Source: Candidatus Rhodoblastus alkanivorans (lineage in GTDB: Bacteria; Pseudomonadota; Alphaproteobacteria; Rhizobiales; Beijerinckiaceae). Taken from it: DNA of 64,000 bases. Where the stretch lies: the NCBI RefSeq assembly GCF_022760755.1, contig NZ_JAIVFP010000001.1:389501-453500 (forward strand), written 5' to 3'. A program made the position numbers and the translations under genes. Within the stretch, counting starts at the first letter, position 1. Each line of letters begins with the position of its first letter. Positions 6,540-61,507 of the stretch are shown here, piece by piece. The notes beneath the pieces were generated by a model, which did not search any database, was not told the origin of the DNA, and worked only from the letters and a program-made list of their open reading frames with translations.

Positions 6540-8477
6540 ATGTCGGAGAAAGTTTACGCCGTTCCGACGGATTGGGAGAGCCGAGCGTTTATCAACGACG
6601 CCAAGTACAAGGAGATGTATGCGCGCTCGGTTGCTGATCCCGAAGGCTTTTGGGCCGAACATGGCAAACGCATTGACTGGATCAAACCCTTTACCAAGGT
6701 GAAAAGCACCAGCTACGATCCGCACAATGTCTCGATCAAATGGTTCGAAGACGGCACGACCAACGTGTCGATGAACTGCATCGACCGCCACCTCGCCACC
6801 CGCGGCGACCAGGTCGCCATCATCTGGGAAGGCGACAATCCCGACGATTCCAAGAAAATCACCTATAAGCAGCTCCATGAAGAGGTCAGCCGCTTCGCCA
6901 ATGTGCTGAAGGCCAAGGGCGTCGGCAAGGGCGACACGGTTTCGATCTATATGCCGATGATCCCCGAAGCGGCCTACGCCATGCTGGCCTGCGCCCGCGT
7001 CGGAGCGATCCATTCGATCGTTTTCGGCGGCTTCTCGCCCGATTCGCTCGCTGGCCGCATCGAGGGCTGCAAGTCCAAGGTCATCATCACGGCCGATGAG
7101 GGTTTGCGCGGCGGCCGCAAAGTGCCGCTGAAGGCCAACGCCGATCTTGCCATCGAAAAAACCGGAGACATCGTCAAGACCCAGATCGTCGTGCAGCGCA
7201 CCGGCGGCAAGGTCGGCTGGAAGGAAGGCCGCGACTGTTGGCTGCACGAAGAGACCGCGAAGGTTTCGACCGATTGCCCCCCGACCGAGATGGACGCGGA
7301 AGACCCGCTGTTCATCCTGTACACTTCGGGTTCAACCGGCGCGCCCAAGGGCGTTGTGCATACGACGGGCGGCTATCTCGTCTATGCGGCGATGACCCAT
7401 CAATATGTCTTCGACTATCATGATGGCGACATCTATTGGTGCACCGCCGACGTCGGCTGGGTCACCGGCCATTCCTATATCGTCTATGGCCCTCTGGCCA
7501 ACGGCGCCACGACCCTGATGTTCGAGGGCATTCCAAACTACCCGTCGATCTCCCGTTTCTGGGACGTGGTGGACAAGCACGGCGTCAATATCTTCTATAC
7601 CGCCCCGACCGCGATTCGCTCACTGATGGGCGCCGGCGAAGATCCGGTGAAGAGGACCTCCCGCAAGACTTTGCGCCTGCTCGGCTCGGTCGGCGAGCCG
7701 ATCAACCCGGAAGCCTGGGAATGGTATTATCGCGTCGTCGGCGACGACCGCTGCCCGATCGTGGACACCTGGTGGCAGACCGAAACCGGCGGCATCCTCA
7801 TCACCCCTCTGCCGGGCGCGACCGCCTTGAAGCCGGGATCGGCAACCCGTCCCTTCTTCGGCGTTCAGCCCCAGGTGGTTGACCCTTCGGGCAATGTCAT
7901 CGAAGGTCCTTGCGAAGGCAATCTCGTGATCGCCGATTCCTGGCCTGGCCAGATGCGGACGGTCTATGGCGACCACGAGCGTTTCCAGCAGACCTATTTC
8001 TCGACCTATCCAGGCAAATATTTCACCGGCGACGGCTGCCGTCGCGACGCCGACGGCTATTACTGGATCACCGGTCGCGTCGACGACGTCATCAACGTTT
8101 CCGGCCACCGCATGGGCACCGCCGAGGTCGAAAGCGCGCTGGTCGCCCATCCGGCGGTCTCCGAGGCCGCCGTGGTCGGCTATCCGCATGATCTCAAGGG
8201 TCAGGGCATTTATGCCTATGTCACGGTCATGGAAGGCGTCGAGCCGACCGACGCTCTGCGCAAGGAGCTCGTCGCCTGGGTCCGCAAGGAGATCGGCCCG
8301 ATCGCGACCCCGGACATCATCCAGTTCGCGCCCGGCCTGCCCAAGACCCGCTCCGGCAAGATCATGCGCCGCATCCTGCGCAAGATCGCCGAAAACGAGT
8401 TCGGATCGCTCGGAGACACCTCGACCCTGGCCGATCCGACCGTGGTCGACGACCTGATCCAGAACCGCGGCGGCTAA
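6540..8477 (+). CDS. acs: Acetyl-coenzyme A synthetase
   Basis: 645 residues from the ATG at 6540, preceded by a strong GGGAGGA site; this removes 21 residues from a longer in-frame reading. The AMP-binding loop [15 protein letters not shown] starts near residue 261. [21 protein letters not shown] lies in the C-terminal domain and [10 protein letters not shown] near the end contains Lys607, the position regulated by reversible acetylation in Salmonella Acs. It converts acetate, ATP and CoA to acetyl-CoA in the cytoplasm. With the methylsuccinyl-CoA dehydrogenase and maeB in this window it fits C2 assimilation. Confidence 0.98.
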
Positions 8478-8506
8478 GCTTAGCTTGCCACATAGCCCTC
8501 GATATG

Positions 8507-8541
8507 GAGCCGGACGATTCTTCGTCCGGCTCGCACTTTTT
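8507..8541 (+). terminator. Rho-independent terminator of acs
   Basis: A perfect 11-bp stem (GAGCCGGACGA at 8507-8517 and its complement at 8522-8532) with a four-base loop TTCT is followed by GCAC and a T run. It lies 30 bases after the acs stop, in the direction of acs transcription. Confidence 0.9.
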
Positions 8542-8699
8542 GATCCCCGTAAAATTTAACGATTTTAAATCGCTGAAATTTTACCAAACCGGCAAGATTC
8601 CGGCAAAATGTGGCGGCGGGGCGCTTGTTTTAACGGCCATTTGACGGCAGGTCGCCAAGAATCGTCGGGTCGGACGAACTTCCCTGTCGGAGAATGAAT

Positions 8700-34158: not shown

Positions 34159-34581
34159 CTAAAATGGTTTGACGACGACCAAAACCACGATGAAAATCAT
34201 CAAGATCGTTGGAACTTCATTGAACACGCGAAAAAATTTGGTGGAGTGCTTGTTGCGGTCCAACTTGAAGTCGTGTTGATATTTTCCGAGCGCAAAATGG
34301 GTCAAGGTCATCAATAATACAAAAATCAGCTTTGCATGAAACCAAGGAGAATGAAAAAATCCACTTTGGATCGCCAGAAACAATCCTGTCACCCAGGCCA
34401 CGATCATGGCTGGCGTCATGATCATGTAGAGAAGTTTTCTCTCCATGATCTTGAATGTTTCCGAACAGCCCGATCCCTGTGCTGCGTCTGCGTGATAGAC
34501 GAAAAGCCGCGGAAGATAAAGCAGCCCGGCCATCCAGGATATGATGGCGATGACATGAAGCGCCTTGACCCACAAATACAT
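34159..34581 (-). CDS. hemJ: Protoporphyrinogen IX oxidase HemJ
   Basis: 140 residues with four predicted membrane helices. The conserved N-terminal histidine (YLWVKALHVIAIISWMAGLLYLPRL would span it) is in KALHVIAI and further markers are RLFVYH and a C-terminal FNEVPTILM. HemJ oxidises protoporphyrinogen IX to protoporphyrin IX in the inner membrane. It follows hemE with one base between, so both haem enzymes share a transcript. GC content of this gene looks lower than in neighbouring genes. Confidence 0.94.
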   Translation of the reverse strand: MYLWVKALHVIAIISWMAGLLYLPRLFVYHADAAQGSGCSETFKIMERKLLYMIMTPAMIVAWVTGLFLAIQSGFFHSPWFHAKLIFVLLMTLTHFALGKYQHDFKLDRNKHSTKFFRVFNEVPTILMIFIVVLVVVKPF

Positions 34582-34582
34582 T

Positions 34583-35647
34583 TCAGGCCTCGAAGGATCG
34601 CACTTGCTTGACCAATGCCGCGACGTGGTCGATCGGGGTTTCCGGCAGTATGCCGTGCCCGAGGTTGAAAATATGGGCTCGCGTACGGTAAGCCTCTAGA
34701 ATCCCAGCGACCGCGGTGGTTTGCCCCGTCCCGCCCGCCAACAAAGCCAGCGGGTCGAGATGACCTTGGACGACGACATTCTCAGGAACATTCGCCGCGA
34801 TCCAGGCAGGATCGACGGCAGTGTCAAGTCCGAGAGCGTTCGCGCCGGCGCGTCGGCAGAAATCGCGATAATGACTCGCCGCGCCGCGCGGAAAGGCGAT
34901 TATCCGGGCATAAGGAACTCTTTTCCGAACGCCCTGTATGATTTTCGTGATCGGAGTGAGTGACCAGCGTTCAAATTCCGCCGCCGGCAAGATTCCGGCC
35001 CAGGAATCGAATATTTGGACGGCGTCGACTCCGGCGTGAAATTGCGCGCAAAGATATTCGATGGAGGCGTCGACCAGCTTGTCAATGAGAATCTGGAAAC
35101 CGTCCGGATCGCGATAGGCGAAAAGGCGCGCCGCGGCCTGATCGGCCGAGCCGCGACCCGCGACCATATAGCTTGCGACTGTCCATGGCGCCCCGCAAAA
35201 GCCAAGAAATGTGGTTTCTGCGGGCAGTTGCGCGCGAACGCGATCGATCGTTTCAAACACCGGCGCCAAACGCTCCAGGGACAAGGGCGGCAAATTCCGG
35301 ATGGCGGCTGTATCGGTGAGGGGATCGAGACGTGGGCCTTCGCCAGTTTCGAAAACGACTTTTTGTCCAAGGGCGTCGGGGACGACGAGGATGTCGCTGA
35401 AAAGGATTGCGGCATCGAATCCAAACCGGCGAATGGGCTGCAGCGTGGCCTCGGCGGCAAAAGCGGGCGAATAGCAGAAGTCGAGAAAGCTCGGAGCCTT
35501 GGCGCGTATCTCGCGATATTCGGGCAGATAGCGGCCAGCCTGCCGCATGAGCCAAATTGGTGGCGATGTCGTCCGACTTCCGTCGAGAACGGCAAGCAGC
35601 GGCTTTTTGCTAACGAGGGGAGGAAGGTGGTCGCTTTGAGGGTTCAC
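34583..35647 (-). CDS. hemE: Uroporphyrinogen decarboxylase
   Basis: 354 residues from a GTG at 35647 with AGGA eight bases upstream. A reading from the ATG at 35803 would add 52 residues of basic, non-conserved sequence and extend into the putative origin. LMRQAGRYLPEYREIR is the family signature near the N-terminus, with GFCGAPWTVASYM and GHGILPETP further on. It decarboxylates uroporphyrinogen III to coproporphyrinogen III. In Caulobacter and many relatives hemE flanks the replication origin. Confidence 0.96.
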   Translation of the reverse strand: MNPQSDHLPPLVSKKPLLAVLDGSRTTSPPIWLMRQAGRYLPEYREIRAKAPSFLDFCYSPAFAAEATLQPIRRFGFDAAILFSDILVVPDALGQKVVFETGEGPRLDPLTDTAAIRNLPPLSLERLAPVFETIDRVRAQLPAETTFLGFCGAPWTVASYMVAGRGSADQAAARLFAYRDPDGFQILIDKLVDASIEYLCAQFHAGVDAVQIFDSWAGILPAAEFERWSLTPITKIIQGVRKRVPYARIIAFPRGAASHYRDFCRRAGANALGLDTAVDPAWIAANVPENVVVQGHLDPLALLAGGTGQTTAVAGILEAYRTRAHIFNLGHGILPETPIDHVAALVKQVRSFEA

Positions 35648-36059
35648 CAATGAAATCCTAAAGAGCTTTTGAATCTTGTTTTTGTTTTTAGACAGGGGAA
35701 TAGCCTTATTCCAGAGGGCGCACAACGCATACCGAATCGCCGGGCGGATTTGGGACAGGCGACGGGAAAAAAGTTGATGGGGCGTTAACAATTTTTTTAC
35801 CAATATCCTTAGGACTTTGCGCCGCTCCGATTCACCATTCGATCGGGCTTATTCCCGTAATTCCCAATCTCAACAATTGGCTTGTTTCAAGGGATAGGAT
35901 TGCGGCGGCTGTTGAGAATTTTCGTGGAATCTCGCAAACTTGGCCGCCCGCTCGGACTTATCCGCCTTCTGCCGACATTTACACAGTCATGGAGCCAGAG
36001 GGACGAAATCAGGGGAAAAGACGAAAAGGCGCTCGCCAGGAAAGAGGATTTGAGCCTCA
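35648..36059. other. Candidate chromosomal replication origin (oriC) between hemE and ppsR
   Basis: A 412-bp gene-free gap between divergent hemE and ppsR, the junction holding Cori in Caulobacter crescentus. It has four GANTC (CcrM methylation) sites at 35671, 35734, 35829 and 35927. A near-consensus CtrA box TTAA-N7-TTTA lies at 35785-35799, overlapping an A/T-rich tract. DnaA-box matches are weak: TTATCCGCC at 35958-35966 (7 of 9 to TTATCCACA) and ATTTACACA at 35977-35985 (6 of 9). The call rests mainly on synteny. Confidence 0.62.
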
Positions 36060-36893
36060 GTGACGCGAAATTATTTTCACCTTCACCTTGTGTCCGATTC
36101 GACCGGGGAAACGCTGATCACCGTCAGCAGGGCCGCCGCCGCGCAATATCAAGGCGTGGCGTCGATCGAGCATATCTATCCGCTCATTCGAAATCACGAC
36201 CAGTTGGATCGGGTCATCGCCGGCATCCGGTCGTCGCCGGGCATCGTTCTCTACACGCTCGTGGATTCAGAGCTCGGCGAGAAACTTGAGCATGCTTGCG
36301 CCGAGGTCGGCGCGCCCGCAATCTCGGTGCTGGCGCCGGTCTTGGGAATTTTTCAGTCCTATTTGGGACCGGCTTCGACGCCGCGACCCGGCGCCCAGCA
36401 TGTGTTGAATTCAGATTATTTCAAACGTATCGACGCCTTGAATTTCACTATGATGCATGACGATGGACAGAGCTCCGGCGATCTCGAAAGCGCCGATGTC
36501 GTTCTTCTCGGCGTCAGTCGAACCTCCAAGACGCCGACAAGCATTTATCTCGCCAATAAGGGAATAAAAACAGCCAATGTTCCAATCGTTCCGGGCGTTC
36601 CGATTCCGGGAGATATTGAAAGGTTGAAAAATCCTTTGGTGATCGGCTTGTTCGCGACGCCCGATCGCATCGTGCAGATTCGGCAGAACCGGCTGTTGGC
36701 GTTGAATGCGACGCAGGAATCGTCTTACGTTGACCGTTCGGCGGTCGCCGACGAAATCAACCAGTCGCGTCGGCTTTTCGCACAAAGGGGCTGGGCGACG
36801 ATCGACGTTTCCCGACGTTCCATCGAGGAAACGGCCGCGGCCATCATGGATCTTTACCGTGACCATCGCTTGCAATTCATCACCCAGGGTTGA
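36060..36893 (+). CDS. ppsR: Pyruvate, phosphate/water dikinase regulatory protein (DUF299 kinase-phosphorylase)
   Basis: 277 residues from a GTG at 36060. HLHLVSDSTGETL at the N-terminus and the P-loop GVSRTSKTPTS at 151-161 define the DUF299/PSRP family. The protein uses ADP to phosphorylate, and phosphate to reactivate, PPDK or PEP synthase, controlling pyruvate-PEP interconversion. It is first of the rightward ppsR-aroE-coaE-dnaQ run beside the candidate origin. A maf gene, which sits between ppsR and aroE in several relatives, is missing. Confidence 0.95.
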   Translation: MTRNYFHLHLVSDSTGETLITVSRAAAAQYQGVASIEHIYPLIRNHDQLDRVIAGIRSSPGIVLYTLVDSELGEKLEHACAEVGAPAISVLAPVLGIFQSYLGPASTPRPGAQHVLNSDYFKRIDALNFTMMHDDGQSSGDLESADVVLLGVSRTSKTPTSIYLANKGIKTANVPIVPGVPIPGDIERLKNPLVIGLFATPDRIVQIRQNRLLALNATQESSYVDRSAVADEINQSRRLFAQRGWATIDVSRRSIEETAAAIMDLYRDHRLQFITQG

Positions 36894-36924: not shown

Positions 36925-37773
36925 ATGAAGCGCGCCTTCGTCGTCGGCTTTCCGATCAGCCACAGCCGGTCCCCTTTGATTCATAATTTCTGGCTGAAGA
37001 AATATGGAATTGCTGCAGAATACGTATCAAAAGCGGTTGAAGCAGACCGGATCAAGACCTTTCTTGCAGGTTTCGAGGCTGAAGGCTTTTGCGGCGGCAA
37101 TGTGACCTTGCCCTATAAGGAGATCGCCTTTGAGCAATGTCAGCAGGTGACGGAATCGGGCAGAAAAACAAAAGCGGTGAATACAATTTGGATGGAGGGC
37201 GGAAAACGTTTCGGCGACAATACGGATATTGAAGGCTTTCTGGCCAACCTCGACGCCGAAGTTCCGGGCTGGTCCCAAGATTGCCAACGGGCGGCGGTCA
37301 TTGGCGCCGGCGGCGCGGCGCGGGCGGTGATCGCAGGCCTGGCGAAGCGGCGGACGCCGGAACTCACGATCGTCAACCGTTCGCGCGAACGGATGTCGCA
37401 ATTGGCCGACGAAATCGCCGATTGGGGGTTTCGGACCATCCAGCAACGCCCATTGGAGGTTCGCCACAGACATTTCGATCAGGCGAATCTCCTGATCAAT
37501 ACGACATCGCTCGGCATGGTTGGAAAGCCTCCGTTGGAGGTCTCATTGGATGATTTGGCGGACGACGCCGTCGTCAATGACATCGTCTATGCGCCGATGG
37601 AAACCGAGCTGTTGCGCGAGGCGAAGCGCAGACGGTTTCGTGTCGCTGGGGGCCTGGGAATGTTGCTTCATCAGGCGGCGCCCGCATTCGAAAGATGGTT
37701 TGGACTGCGGCCAGAGGTGACGTCGGAGCTTCGGGATTTGGTCGAACAGGACTTGCAACGGCCTCGATCATGA
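36925..37773 (+). CDS. aroE: Shikimate dehydrogenase
   Basis: 282 residues. Shikimate-binding N-terminus GFPISHSRSPLIHNFWL, catalytic lysine in GGNVTLPYKE, and Rossmann loop VIGAGGAARAVIAGL near 130. NRSRER is the adenine-phosphate contact of NADP-specific AroE. It reduces 3-dehydroshikimate to shikimate. Its stop overlaps the coaE start (ATGA), and it follows ppsR by 31 bases. Confidence 0.97.
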   Translation: MKRAFVVGFPISHSRSPLIHNFWLKKYGIAAEYVSKAVEADRIKTFLAGFEAEGFCGGNVTLPYKEIAFEQCQQVTESGRKTKAVNTIWMEGGKRFGDNTDIEGFLANLDAEVPGWSQDCQRAAVIGAGGAARAVIAGLAKRRTPELTIVNRSRERMSQLADEIADWGFRTIQQRPLEVRHRHFDQANLLINTTSLGMVGKPPLEVSLDDLADDAVVNDIVYAPMETELLREAKRRRFRVAGGLGMLLHQAAPAFERWFGLRPEVTSELRDLVEQDLQRPRS

Positions 37774-38360
37774 TTGTTTTGGGATTGACCGGCTCTATCG
37801 GAATGGGAAAATCGACGACGGCGAACTTATTCCGAAGGTTCGGAATTCCCGTTTTCGACGCCGATCAAAGCGTTCACCGGATTTATGCGGGCGAACCGCC
37901 GGAGGGCTTGGCGGAGCGGTTTCCAGACGCCATCGTCGATGGCCGTATTGACCGCAAACGCCTCGCGGCTTTGGTGCTGCATGATTCGGGCGCCGTGGCG
38001 ACATTGGAAAAAATCGTCCATCCTATGGTCGCCCACGCGCGAGACCAGTTTATTCTCGACAACAGAAGGGAAGGCGCGAAGGTCGCTGTGATCGACGCGC
38101 CTTTGTTGTTCGAGACGGAGACCTGGCGGCTTGCGGATGCGGTTGTTGTGGTGTCGGCGCCGGAAAAAATTCAACGGGAGCGAGTCTTGTCGAGGGACTC
38201 TACGACTGAAATAAAGTTGAACCAGATATTGAGCCGCCAGATGCCTGACGCGGAAAAAAAAAGACGCGCGCAATTCATTGTCCATACTCAATTCGGGATC
38301 GAACAGGCGCGACGGCAAATCCGAACAATCGTCGCAACTCTTGCCCAAATTGACAAATGA
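37770..38360 (+). CDS. coaE: Dephospho-CoA kinase
   Basis: 196 residues from the ATG at 37770 overlapping the aroE stop by four bases. The P-loop GLTGSIGMGKS occupies 5-15; VFDADQSVHRIYAG and DAPLLFET are CoaE motifs. It phosphorylates the ribose 3'-OH of dephospho-CoA, the last step of CoA synthesis. It sits in the origin-proximal aroE-coaE-dnaQ cluster typical of Alphaproteobacteria. Confidence 0.97.
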   Translation: MIVLGLTGSIGMGKSTTANLFRRFGIPVFDADQSVHRIYAGEPPEGLAERFPDAIVDGRIDRKRLAALVLHDSGAVATLEKIVHPMVAHARDQFILDNRREGAKVAVIDAPLLFETETWRLADAVVVVSAPEKIQRERVLSRDSTTEIKLNQILSRQMPDAEKKRRAQFIVHTQFGIEQARRQIRTIVATLAQIDK

Positions 38361-38393
38361 ATCATAATAAATGGTATTGGATCAGGCATCGTC

Positions 38394-39101
38394 ATGGAAC
38401 GTGAAATTGTCATCGATACAGAGACCACCGGCCTAGAGGCGAATGCGGGCGATAGAATCATTGAAATCGCCGCTATAGAGCTTTTAAATGGAATTCCGTC
38501 TCAAAATATATTTCATACTTATGTAAATCCTGAACGCGATATTCCAGATTCTGCCTTTAAAGTTCATGGCATATCCTATGAAATGGTCGCCGATAAGCCG
38601 AAATTTTGTGACATTGTCGATCAATTTCTTGAATTCATCGTCGGCGATCCAATCGTCGCGCATAATGCCGAATTCGATTTGGGGTTCATCAATGCGGAGT
38701 TGCGTCGAGTCGGCCGCGCCGCTCTGAACGGAAATCCCGTGGTCGATACATTGGCCATGGCGCGAAAAAAGTTTCCCGCGCAGTCCAATTCGCTCGACGC
38801 GCTCTGTAACAGGTTTGGCATCGACCGAAGCCGCCGCGTGAAGCATGGCGCCTTGGTCGACGCGGAAATTCTCGCCGAGGTCTATACGGAACTCAGGGGA
38901 GGCCGGCAGACGACATTGACCTTGCAGGTCAGGCGGGAAATTTCCAAGGGCGCGGCCAACTTCTCTCTCTTGCGGCAACGTCCGCGGGATTTGCCTTTGG
39001 CGTTGGCGGACGCCGAGAGCGCGGCTCATGCTTTGCTCGTACAAGAACTTGGCGCGCCCGCGCTTTGGGCGCGTTATACGGAGGTATCAGAATCGAAGTG
39101 A
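38394..39101 (+). CDS. dnaQ: DNA polymerase III epsilon subunit (3'-5' proofreading exonuclease)
   Basis: 235 residues. DEDDh motifs are visible: DTETTG (8-13) with the first acidic pair, HNAEFDLGF for Exo II, and HGALVDAEILAEVY for Exo III with its histidine and aspartate. The C-terminal tail would bind the alpha subunit. The first half is notably AT-rich: one sampled line (38521-38580) has 23 G+C in 60 bases, far below the surroundings. It is convergent with regA across a 32-bp AT-rich gap. Confidence 0.97.
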   Translation: MEREIVIDTETTGLEANAGDRIIEIAAIELLNGIPSQNIFHTYVNPERDIPDSAFKVHGISYEMVADKPKFCDIVDQFLEFIVGDPIVAHNAEFDLGFINAELRRVGRAALNGNPVVDTLAMARKKFPAQSNSLDALCNRFGIDRSRRVKHGALVDAEILAEVYTELRGGRQTTLTLQVRREISKGAANFSLLRQRPRDLPLALADAESAAHALLVQELGAPALWARYTEVSESK

Positions 39102-60040: not shown

Positions 60041-61507
60041 ATGTCGAAAGCACAACTCGGAATGGTAAACAAAGACGATCGCAACGGTGACGGCGATGCT
60101 GCTCTATGGGCAAGGTTCTGCGAGCGGTTTCGTCGCGAGGTCGGCGACGCGATTTACGTTTCGTGGTTCAAGTCTTTGGAGTTGGAGACCATCGTTGATG
60201 GTGTCGCTTATTTAAGCGTCCCGACCAAATTCTTGAGGAGCTGGATCCAGGCGCATTATCTGGATAAATTGCGTAATACCATTGCGGCCGAAATCCCAGG
60301 CGTGCGCGACATTGCTCTTGAGTTGAGAGCGGCAATGCGGCTTCCTGGAACGGGACTGGCGGAGCGGCGCGGCTTGGACGCCGCAAGGGACCCGGGCGCG
60401 GTGGAGGCAAAGCGCGCCGCGACTACAGGGAAAGATCAGCTGAAAGCCGATTCCGCCGGGAGCTTCGGTGGGTCGTCGCTTGACGGACGTTTTAGATTTT
60501 CAACCTTTCTGGTCGGACCGTCGAACCAGCTTGCCATTGCCGCGGCGCGGCAGGTCGGAGAGGGGTCGTCCGGAGCGGGAACTACTTTTAACCCGTTGTA
60601 TTTTTTCTCAAATGTTGGTCTTGGAAAGACGCATTTGATCCAGGCCATCGCGCATGCGGGTATGGAGGCCGGGCGGCGCGTGATTTATCTCACGGCCGAG
60701 AAGTTCATGTATGGATTTGTGGCGGCGCTCAAGCGTCAAAACTCCATGGCTTTCAAGGATAGCCTTCGTTCGATCGATTTGCTGGTCATCGACGACGTGC
60801 AGTTTTTGCAGGGCAAAACGATTCAGCACGAGTTTTGTCATACCCTGAACGCGCTGATCGATTCCGGCCGGCAGGTCGTGATTGCCGGCGACCGGTCGCC
60901 GAACGAGTTGGAAAATCTGGACGAGCGCGTCAAATCGCGTTTCGCGGGCGGTTTGTGCGTGGAGATTCAGTCTCTGGATGAAGGTCTTCGCAGAGGCATT
61001 CTCGATGCGCGAATTCAAAGCATAAGAACAGCGCATCCGGCATTCGATGTGACCGCGAATGTCGTATCGATGGTCACGAAATTGATCGACACGAATGGGC
61101 GCGACTTGGACGGCGCGGTGAACCGGCTGTTGGCGCATACGATTCTGGCTGGCGCGCCGCTCACGCTTGAGGCGGCCGAAGCCGCAATTCGCGATCTGAT
61201 CCGTGTCAAAGAACCAAAAAAGGTCAAGATCGAAGATATTCAAAAGTTGGTGGCGACCCATTTCAACGTAAGCCGCGCAGATATTCTATCATCTCGGCGC
61301 ACGGCAAATGTGGTGCGGCCGCGGCAGATCGCGATGTATCTGGCCAAAACGATGACTTTGCGGTCGTTGCCCGAGATTGGCCGCCGGTTTGGCGGCCGAG
61401 ACCACACGACGGTTTTGCATGCGGTCAGAAAAATCGAGGAAATGGCCTCAAAGGATATGGGGCTGAGTCAGGAACTCGACCTTTTGAAGCGGCTGCTCGG
61501 CGACTGA
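60041..61507 (+). CDS. dnaA: Chromosomal replication initiator DnaA
   Basis: 488 residues. Domain I spans about 20-90, followed by a variable linker to about 150. The AAA+ domain carries SNVGLGKT at 190-197 as Walker A and IDDVQFLQGK as Walker B. The DNA-binding domain IV contains the DnaA signature GGRDHTTVLHAV near 451-462. It binds DnaA boxes and melts the origin. It lies about 24 kb from the candidate oriC, as expected for Alphaproteobacteria where dnaA is not at the origin itself. Confidence 0.98.
   Translation: MSKAQLGMVNKDDRNGDGDAALWARFCERFRREVGDAIYVSWFKSLELETIVDGVAYLSVPTKFLRSWIQAHYLDKLRNTIAAEIPGVRDIALELRAAMRLPGTGLAERRGLDAARDPGAVEAKRAATTGKDQLKADSAGSFGGSSLDGRFRFSTFLVGPSNQLAIAAARQVGEGSSGAGTTFNPLYFFSNVGLGKTHLIQAIAHAGMEAGRRVIYLTAEKFMYGFVAALKRQNSMAFKDSLRSIDLLVIDDVQFLQGKTIQHEFCHTLNALIDSGRQVVIAGDRSPNELENLDERVKSRFAGGLCVEIQSLDEGLRRGILDARIQSIRTAHPAFDVTANVVSMVTKLIDTNGRDLDGAVNRLLAHTILAGAPLTLEAAEAAIRDLIRVKEPKKVKIEDIQKLVATHFNVSRADILSSRRTANVVRPRQIAMYLAKTMTLRSLPEIGRRFGGRDHTTVLHAVRKIEEMASKDMGLSQELDLLKRLLGD

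Follow-up and report, generated by a model that had tools for sequence, protein, structure and literature searches.

The divergent junction between hemE and ppsR in Candidatus Rhodoblastus alkanivorans raises the question of whether the chromosome of this organism is replicated from the gap between the two genes. An origin between hemE and the COG1806 gene is established for Caulobacter and has been proposed for Rickettsia (PMC1914354). The locus was analyzed in a window of 64 kb (C1:389501-453500) from a 4.35-Mb genome assembled in five contigs, of which C1 comprises 4.13 Mb; the nearest relatives are two metagenome-assembled genomes (BP9.bin80 and WY3.bin95). Open reading frames and family profile matches delimit a gap of 412 bp and confirm the divergent arrangement reported in the initial annotation. 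The genes concerned and the proposed origin are:

34159-34581, minus strand: hemJ, origin-proximal cluster (TIGR00701, E 2.2e-52)
34583-35647, minus strand: hemE, uroporphyrinogen decarboxylase, left border (TIGR01464, E 3.4e-114)
35648-36059, no strand: hemE/ppsR intergenic gap, at 425.15-425.56 kb of C1, proposed chromosomal origin (oriC), based on skew, conserved junction and A+T content
36060-36893, plus strand: ppsR/DUF299 (COG1806), PEP synthase regulator, right border (NF003742, E 9.3e-100)
36925-39101, plus strand: aroE, coaE and dnaQ, remainder of the conserved origin-side cluster (NCBIfam matches above cut-off)
60041-61507, plus strand: dnaA, encoding the initiator, at a distance of about 24 kb from the proposed origin (PF00308, E 8e-57)

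In this cluster hemJ and hemE lead leftward from the gap, and ppsR, aroE, coaE and dnaQ rightward. On the minus strand hemE ends at 35647, and ppsR begins with a GTG codon at 36060. The start codon of hemE is uncertain, as the first ~12 residues are unconserved; thus the true gap may extend somewhat on the hemE side. The gap contains 51% A+T compared with ~37% in sampled stretches of the genome, which places it in the top 0.7% of 412-bp windows. An Rfam search of these 412 bp gave no match. The order hemJ-hemE/ppsR-aroE-coaE-dnaQ is the same in five congeners, and hemE lies divergently upstream of ppsR in 59 of 80 relatives' loci that encode a ppsR relative, with gaps of 297-637 bp (mostly 300-480).

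The initial annotation had named a skew minimum elsewhere as evidence against an origin at this junction. GC skew calculated per 2 kb is negative in all bins of the window up to 34 kb and positive in all bins afterwards. A two-mean fit over 103 contiguous kb set the change point at 34.0 kb of the window, with a bootstrap 95% interval (31.9-36.8 kb) that spans the gap; the raw minimum is at 32.3 kb, 3.3 kb left of the gap. Over the whole of C1, for which skew was determined from sampled stretches rather than the complete sequence, the left arm is negative in 23 of 29 samples and the right arm positive in 25 of 26. A second switch occurs at 2.47-2.55 Mb of C1, which is 2.05-2.13 Mb from the gap and corresponds to half of the ~4.13-Mb contig. 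The resolution of the skew is about +/-2.5 kb; gene context and sites narrow the origin to the gap, the only sizeable intergenic stretch in the skew-defined interval.

The gaps of the relatives are also enriched in origin-type motifs compared with their flanks. Matches to TTATCCACA with at most one mismatch occur at 2.59/kb in gaps versus 0.17/kb in flanks (~15 times), TCCACA at 4.61/kb versus 0.38/kb and TCCCCA at 2.55/kb versus 0.21/kb, and perfect TTAA-N7-TTAA boxes are almost confined to the gaps. Skew, flanking genes, the conserved gap, aligned motifs and the regulator genes described below support the proposal of an origin at the hemE/ppsR junction. We consider it highly probable (about 0.93) that the chromosome has its single origin in this gap, an origin of the hemE-DUF299 (Caulobacter/Rickettsia) type. 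The location is standard for alphaproteobacterial origins and the kind of object is already known. What is gained is the location of a likely replication origin in one genome of a phototroph genus, together with an alignment-based list of the relevant sites; no origin paper for this genus was found in a literature search that left most subscription journals outside its range.

It is very unlikely that the gap contains only the divergent promoters of hemE and ppsR, with the origin located within a few kb, e.g. at 32-34.5 kb, or beside dnaA at 60 kb. Both the skew minimum and the change point lie left of the gap, and the conserved blocks on the hemE side could be promoter or leader elements. However, the 95% skew interval includes the gap, and dcp-hemJ-hemE, between 32.0 and 35.6 kb, has no comparable gap. 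The excess of DnaA and CtrA motifs in the relatives is found in this gap and is absent from the 4-kb flanks, and no sigma-70-like promoter was matched within the 412 bp. The dnaA locus itself was ruled out as the origin, as the skew remains positive from 34 kb to beyond this gene.

Still less credible is a skew switch caused by a recent inversion or an assembly join rather than an origin. The five contigs of the assembly and the sampled skew leave some room for this reading, but the local skew also flips, in the same direction and at the same gap, in the separately assembled congeners G004, G008 and G009 (L194, L195 and L201), and the second switch is antipodal. About five of ten family genomes show a clear local flip; in the rest it is weak, missing or reversed (reversed at the junction in two), so that skew by itself would fail to locate the origin in some of the ten.

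Within the gap, sites were identified by motif scans and by an alignment of six congeneric gaps, whose pairwise identity to the window is 45-63%:

35671-35675, no strand: GANTC (CcrM) site beside a T-tract, the only GANTC kept in all six congeneric gaps
35695-35712, no strand: near-palindromic block GGGGAATAGCCTTATTCC, with 13 of its 18 columns identical across six congeners
35717-35725, no strand: element with a CACAA core that is invariant in six congeners, perhaps a degenerate DnaA half-box
35785-35799, no strand: CtrA-type box TTAA-N7-TTTA with one mismatch, then CCAAT; overlaps a site at 35774-35788
35849-35857, plus strand: tandem weak DnaA-box-like site 1, TTATTCCCG, 7 of 9 columns invariant
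35858-35866, plus strand: tandem weak DnaA-box-like site 2, TAATTCCCA, 7 of 9 columns invariant
35910-35918, minus strand: weak DnaA-box-like site TTCTCAACA, two mismatches (motif scan, alignment)
35958-35966, plus strand: DnaA-like site TTATCCGCC, TTATCC-type sites aligned in the wider family
35977-35985, plus strand: DnaA-like site ATTTACACA, aligned with ATATTCACA/TAATCCACA in congeners and TGTCCCCA/TATCCACA in the family

Several weak DnaA-box-like sites are thus present, some of them conserved in congeners. Strong boxes are missing, as had been noted: TTATCCACA does not occur in the 412-bp gap even if one mismatch is allowed. By comparison with Caulobacter, whose origin is likewise built on weak boxes, this is not anomalous. 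The initial annotation was right in expecting DnaA to rely on weak sites, but its choice of sites matches the conserved ones only in part. Both DnaA-like sites that it listed are present; the one at 35977-35985 is kept through the genus, the one at 35958-35966 is not, and the best-conserved blocks, 35849-35866 and 35695-35712, had both been overlooked. The former is the best 18-column block of the six congeneric gaps (permutation P 0.0005); in the closest relatives the tandem pair reads TTATCCCCG GAATTCCCA, site 1 being TTATCCCCG. As to the weak site at 35910-35918, sites of the form TTNTCAACA are also present in the gaps of L073, L074, L080, L116 and L127. Block 35695-35712 may be an unwinding region, a protein site or an element of hemE control. 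Only two-mismatch matches to the IHF consensus WATCAANNNNTTR were found within the gap, and these were not counted. A weight matrix for DnaA, when iterated, drifted to 375 loose sites and served only to list sites.

DnaA of this organism carries the canonical domain IV signature GGRDHTTVLHA, and exact TTATCCACA boxes exist elsewhere in the genome, eight in total. The preference of the initiator is thus probably unchanged; the origin is probably made of low-affinity sites. Three of the eight exact boxes are located within 160 bp directly upstream of dnaE (C1:1959080-1959239; L204 9080-9240), which encodes the DNA polymerase III alpha subunit. Their arrangement suggests control of dnaE by DnaA or a DnaA-titrating (datA-like) site. 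As an origin this 1.959-Mb cluster was ruled out, since it lies upstream of dnaE inside a uniformly positive-skew arm.

All four GANTC sites counted in the initial annotation are present, at 35671, 35734, 35829 and 35927, but the excess it saw in them is weak, with 2.0 sites expected in dinucleotide shuffles (P 0.12) and four reached in 3.7% of all 412-bp windows. With this P value, GANTC enrichment was rejected as evidence for this gap alone. Three of the four sites are not kept through the genus; the site at 35671 reads GAATC in five of the six congeneric gaps and GACTC in one, so that the site is conserved and not its exact bases. Pooled over all gaps, GANTC is enriched (186 sites versus 114 expected; the maximum of 20 shuffle rounds was 137).

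The near CtrA box at 35785-35799 was found as described and reads TTAACAATTTTTTTA; the site overlapping it at 35774-35788 is likewise CtrA-like with one mismatch. Shuffled sequences contain at least one CtrA-like site (at most one mismatch) in 20% of cases and two in 3%. A single one-mismatch box, one base short of the consensus, is therefore not significant alone. At least two CtrA-like sites combined with at least four GANTC sites occurred only in windows overlapping the gap, among 106,168 windows of 412 bp from 1.08 Mb of the genome, a combined statistic that was chosen after the fact. In the congeners G004, G008 and G009, as in many members of the family, a perfect TTAA-N7-TTAA box stands at the corresponding place. 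Such boxes were found in 21 of 63 gaps (59 relatives, the window and three congeners) versus 0.3 expected from dinucleotide shuffles, and A+T-matched controls yielded them in none of 838 flank windows and in two of 211 windows of this genome. In a further ten family genomes, well assembled and picked for contiguity and not for sites, seven of nine gaps harbor a perfect box 139-221 bp from hemE. CtrA boxes also occur in loci of Stappia, Nitratireductor and Salaquimonas.

The similar placement of perfect CtrA boxes in many predicted origins of the same family is somewhat new, and no paper on CtrA boxes in Beijerinckiaceae origins was found, most subscription journals being outside the search. 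For specialists the point is a CtrA box that is conserved in the family and slightly degenerate in the window's own copy.

The genome encodes DnaA, CtrA, GcrA and a protein with a RAMA domain that is presumably CcrM; the encoded CtrA is 85% identical to the Caulobacter sequence. From these genes and the conserved sites we infer how DnaA binding, unwinding, repression by CtrA and methylation might be combined at this origin. DnaA would assemble cooperatively on low-affinity boxes, namely the tandem pair at 35849-35866, the opposite-strand site at 35910-35918 and the site at 35977-35985, perhaps with additional sites at 35717-35725 and 35958-35966. It would open A/T-rich DNA, for which the T-rich stretch toward hemE (35660-35715) is the probable place. 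The box at 35785-35799 lies centrally in the array; a CtrA dimer bound to it would sterically exclude DnaA and hold off replication at certain stages of the cell cycle. Methylation of the 35671 site by CcrM may tag origins that have just been replicated.

We give direct control of the origin by CtrA in this species slightly better than even odds. It is also possible, though we would not favor it, that the gap is the origin but that CtrA is inactive there, TTAA-N7-TTTA being a decaying remnant or an A/T-rich unwinding tract. The box has one mismatch in the window and in G005 and G007 and is perfect in three congeners. Moreover, the S. meliloti origin was reported to be without a CtrA motif and unbound by CtrA (PMC4433202), and CtrA was reported not to bind the origin of B. 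abortus (PMC2877005). Against inactivity, all three close members have kept the position, the GTTAA first half-site and the terminal TTTTTA, and in the window the second one-mismatch site overlaps the first. A wider proposal, to which we give a little under an even chance, is that CtrA commonly controls the origin directly in Beijerinckiaceae and in some other Hyphomicrobiales, through a box whose position inside the hemE/ppsR gap is conserved. Gating by CtrA would in that case be ancient, with losses in Sinorhizobium and Brucella, and in the lineage of the window CtrA and DnaA boxes would have been weakened together. If true, CtrA gating would not be a Caulobacter speciality.

The surroundings of the junction vary within the genus. 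In G004, G008 and G009 the regA-orf39783-orf41159 block is found on the hemE side and not on that of dnaQ, which would fit an inversion around the origin; in these congeners dnaA is only about 4 kb away from the gap. In the R. acidophilus-type congeners G001, G002, G003 and G010, hemE, ppsR, aroE, coaE and dnaQ are dispersed over different contigs (L196-L203, L233-L241). This shows that the hemE/ppsR location is not obligatory, and the dispersal in part of the genus offers a natural comparison for how origins move. R. acidophilus-type genomes also contain an intergenic 111-bp tandem array about 2.2 kb downstream of hemE (L203 4164-4811, 5.8 copies; L200 about 8243-8590). Most units harbor two TTAA-N7-TTA(A/C) CtrA-like sites and one GAATC, and the array might be an element for replication or segregation that has moved. 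No hemE lies within the 2-4 kb upstream of ppsR in loci of Bradyrhizobium, of the Pseudolabrys type and of some Beijerinckiaceae (L067, L075, L076, L082, L084, L094, L106-L108, L111, L115, L118, L124 and L125). The junction was thus broken more than once.

The proposed origin resembles Cori of Caulobacter crescentus (hemE/CC0001) in its position between hemE and the DUF299/COG1806 gene (PMC1914354). The G- and W-boxes of the Caulobacter origin are weak, and this origin is occluded by CtrA (PMC4468827); here, too, weak DnaA-box-like sites instead of TTATCCACA are found with CtrA-like sites nearby. However, CtrA sites number five in Cori, which also contains two G-boxes and a site for IHF. In this gap there is one CtrA site with a single mismatch, or two that overlap; its box-like sites are of the TTCCC type, and none of the IHF matches found is convincing. 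The origin of Rickettsia prowazekii (hemE/RP001) has the same border genes and a gap of about 384 bp (PMC1914354). Its A+T content is 82%, in contrast to 51% here. In the same order of bacteria as the organism studied here, Sibley and colleagues reportedly placed the chromosomal origin of Sinorhizobium meliloti next to hemE in 2006. The hemE neighborhood is thus shared with S. meliloti, but CtrA boxes, in contrast to its origin, are seen in the putative origins of Beijerinckiaceae. A link between CtrA and the origin of the kind proposed here is seen in Hyphomonas neptunium, which belongs to a different order; by ChIP-seq, CtrA binds there next to the chromosomal origin (PMC7200025).
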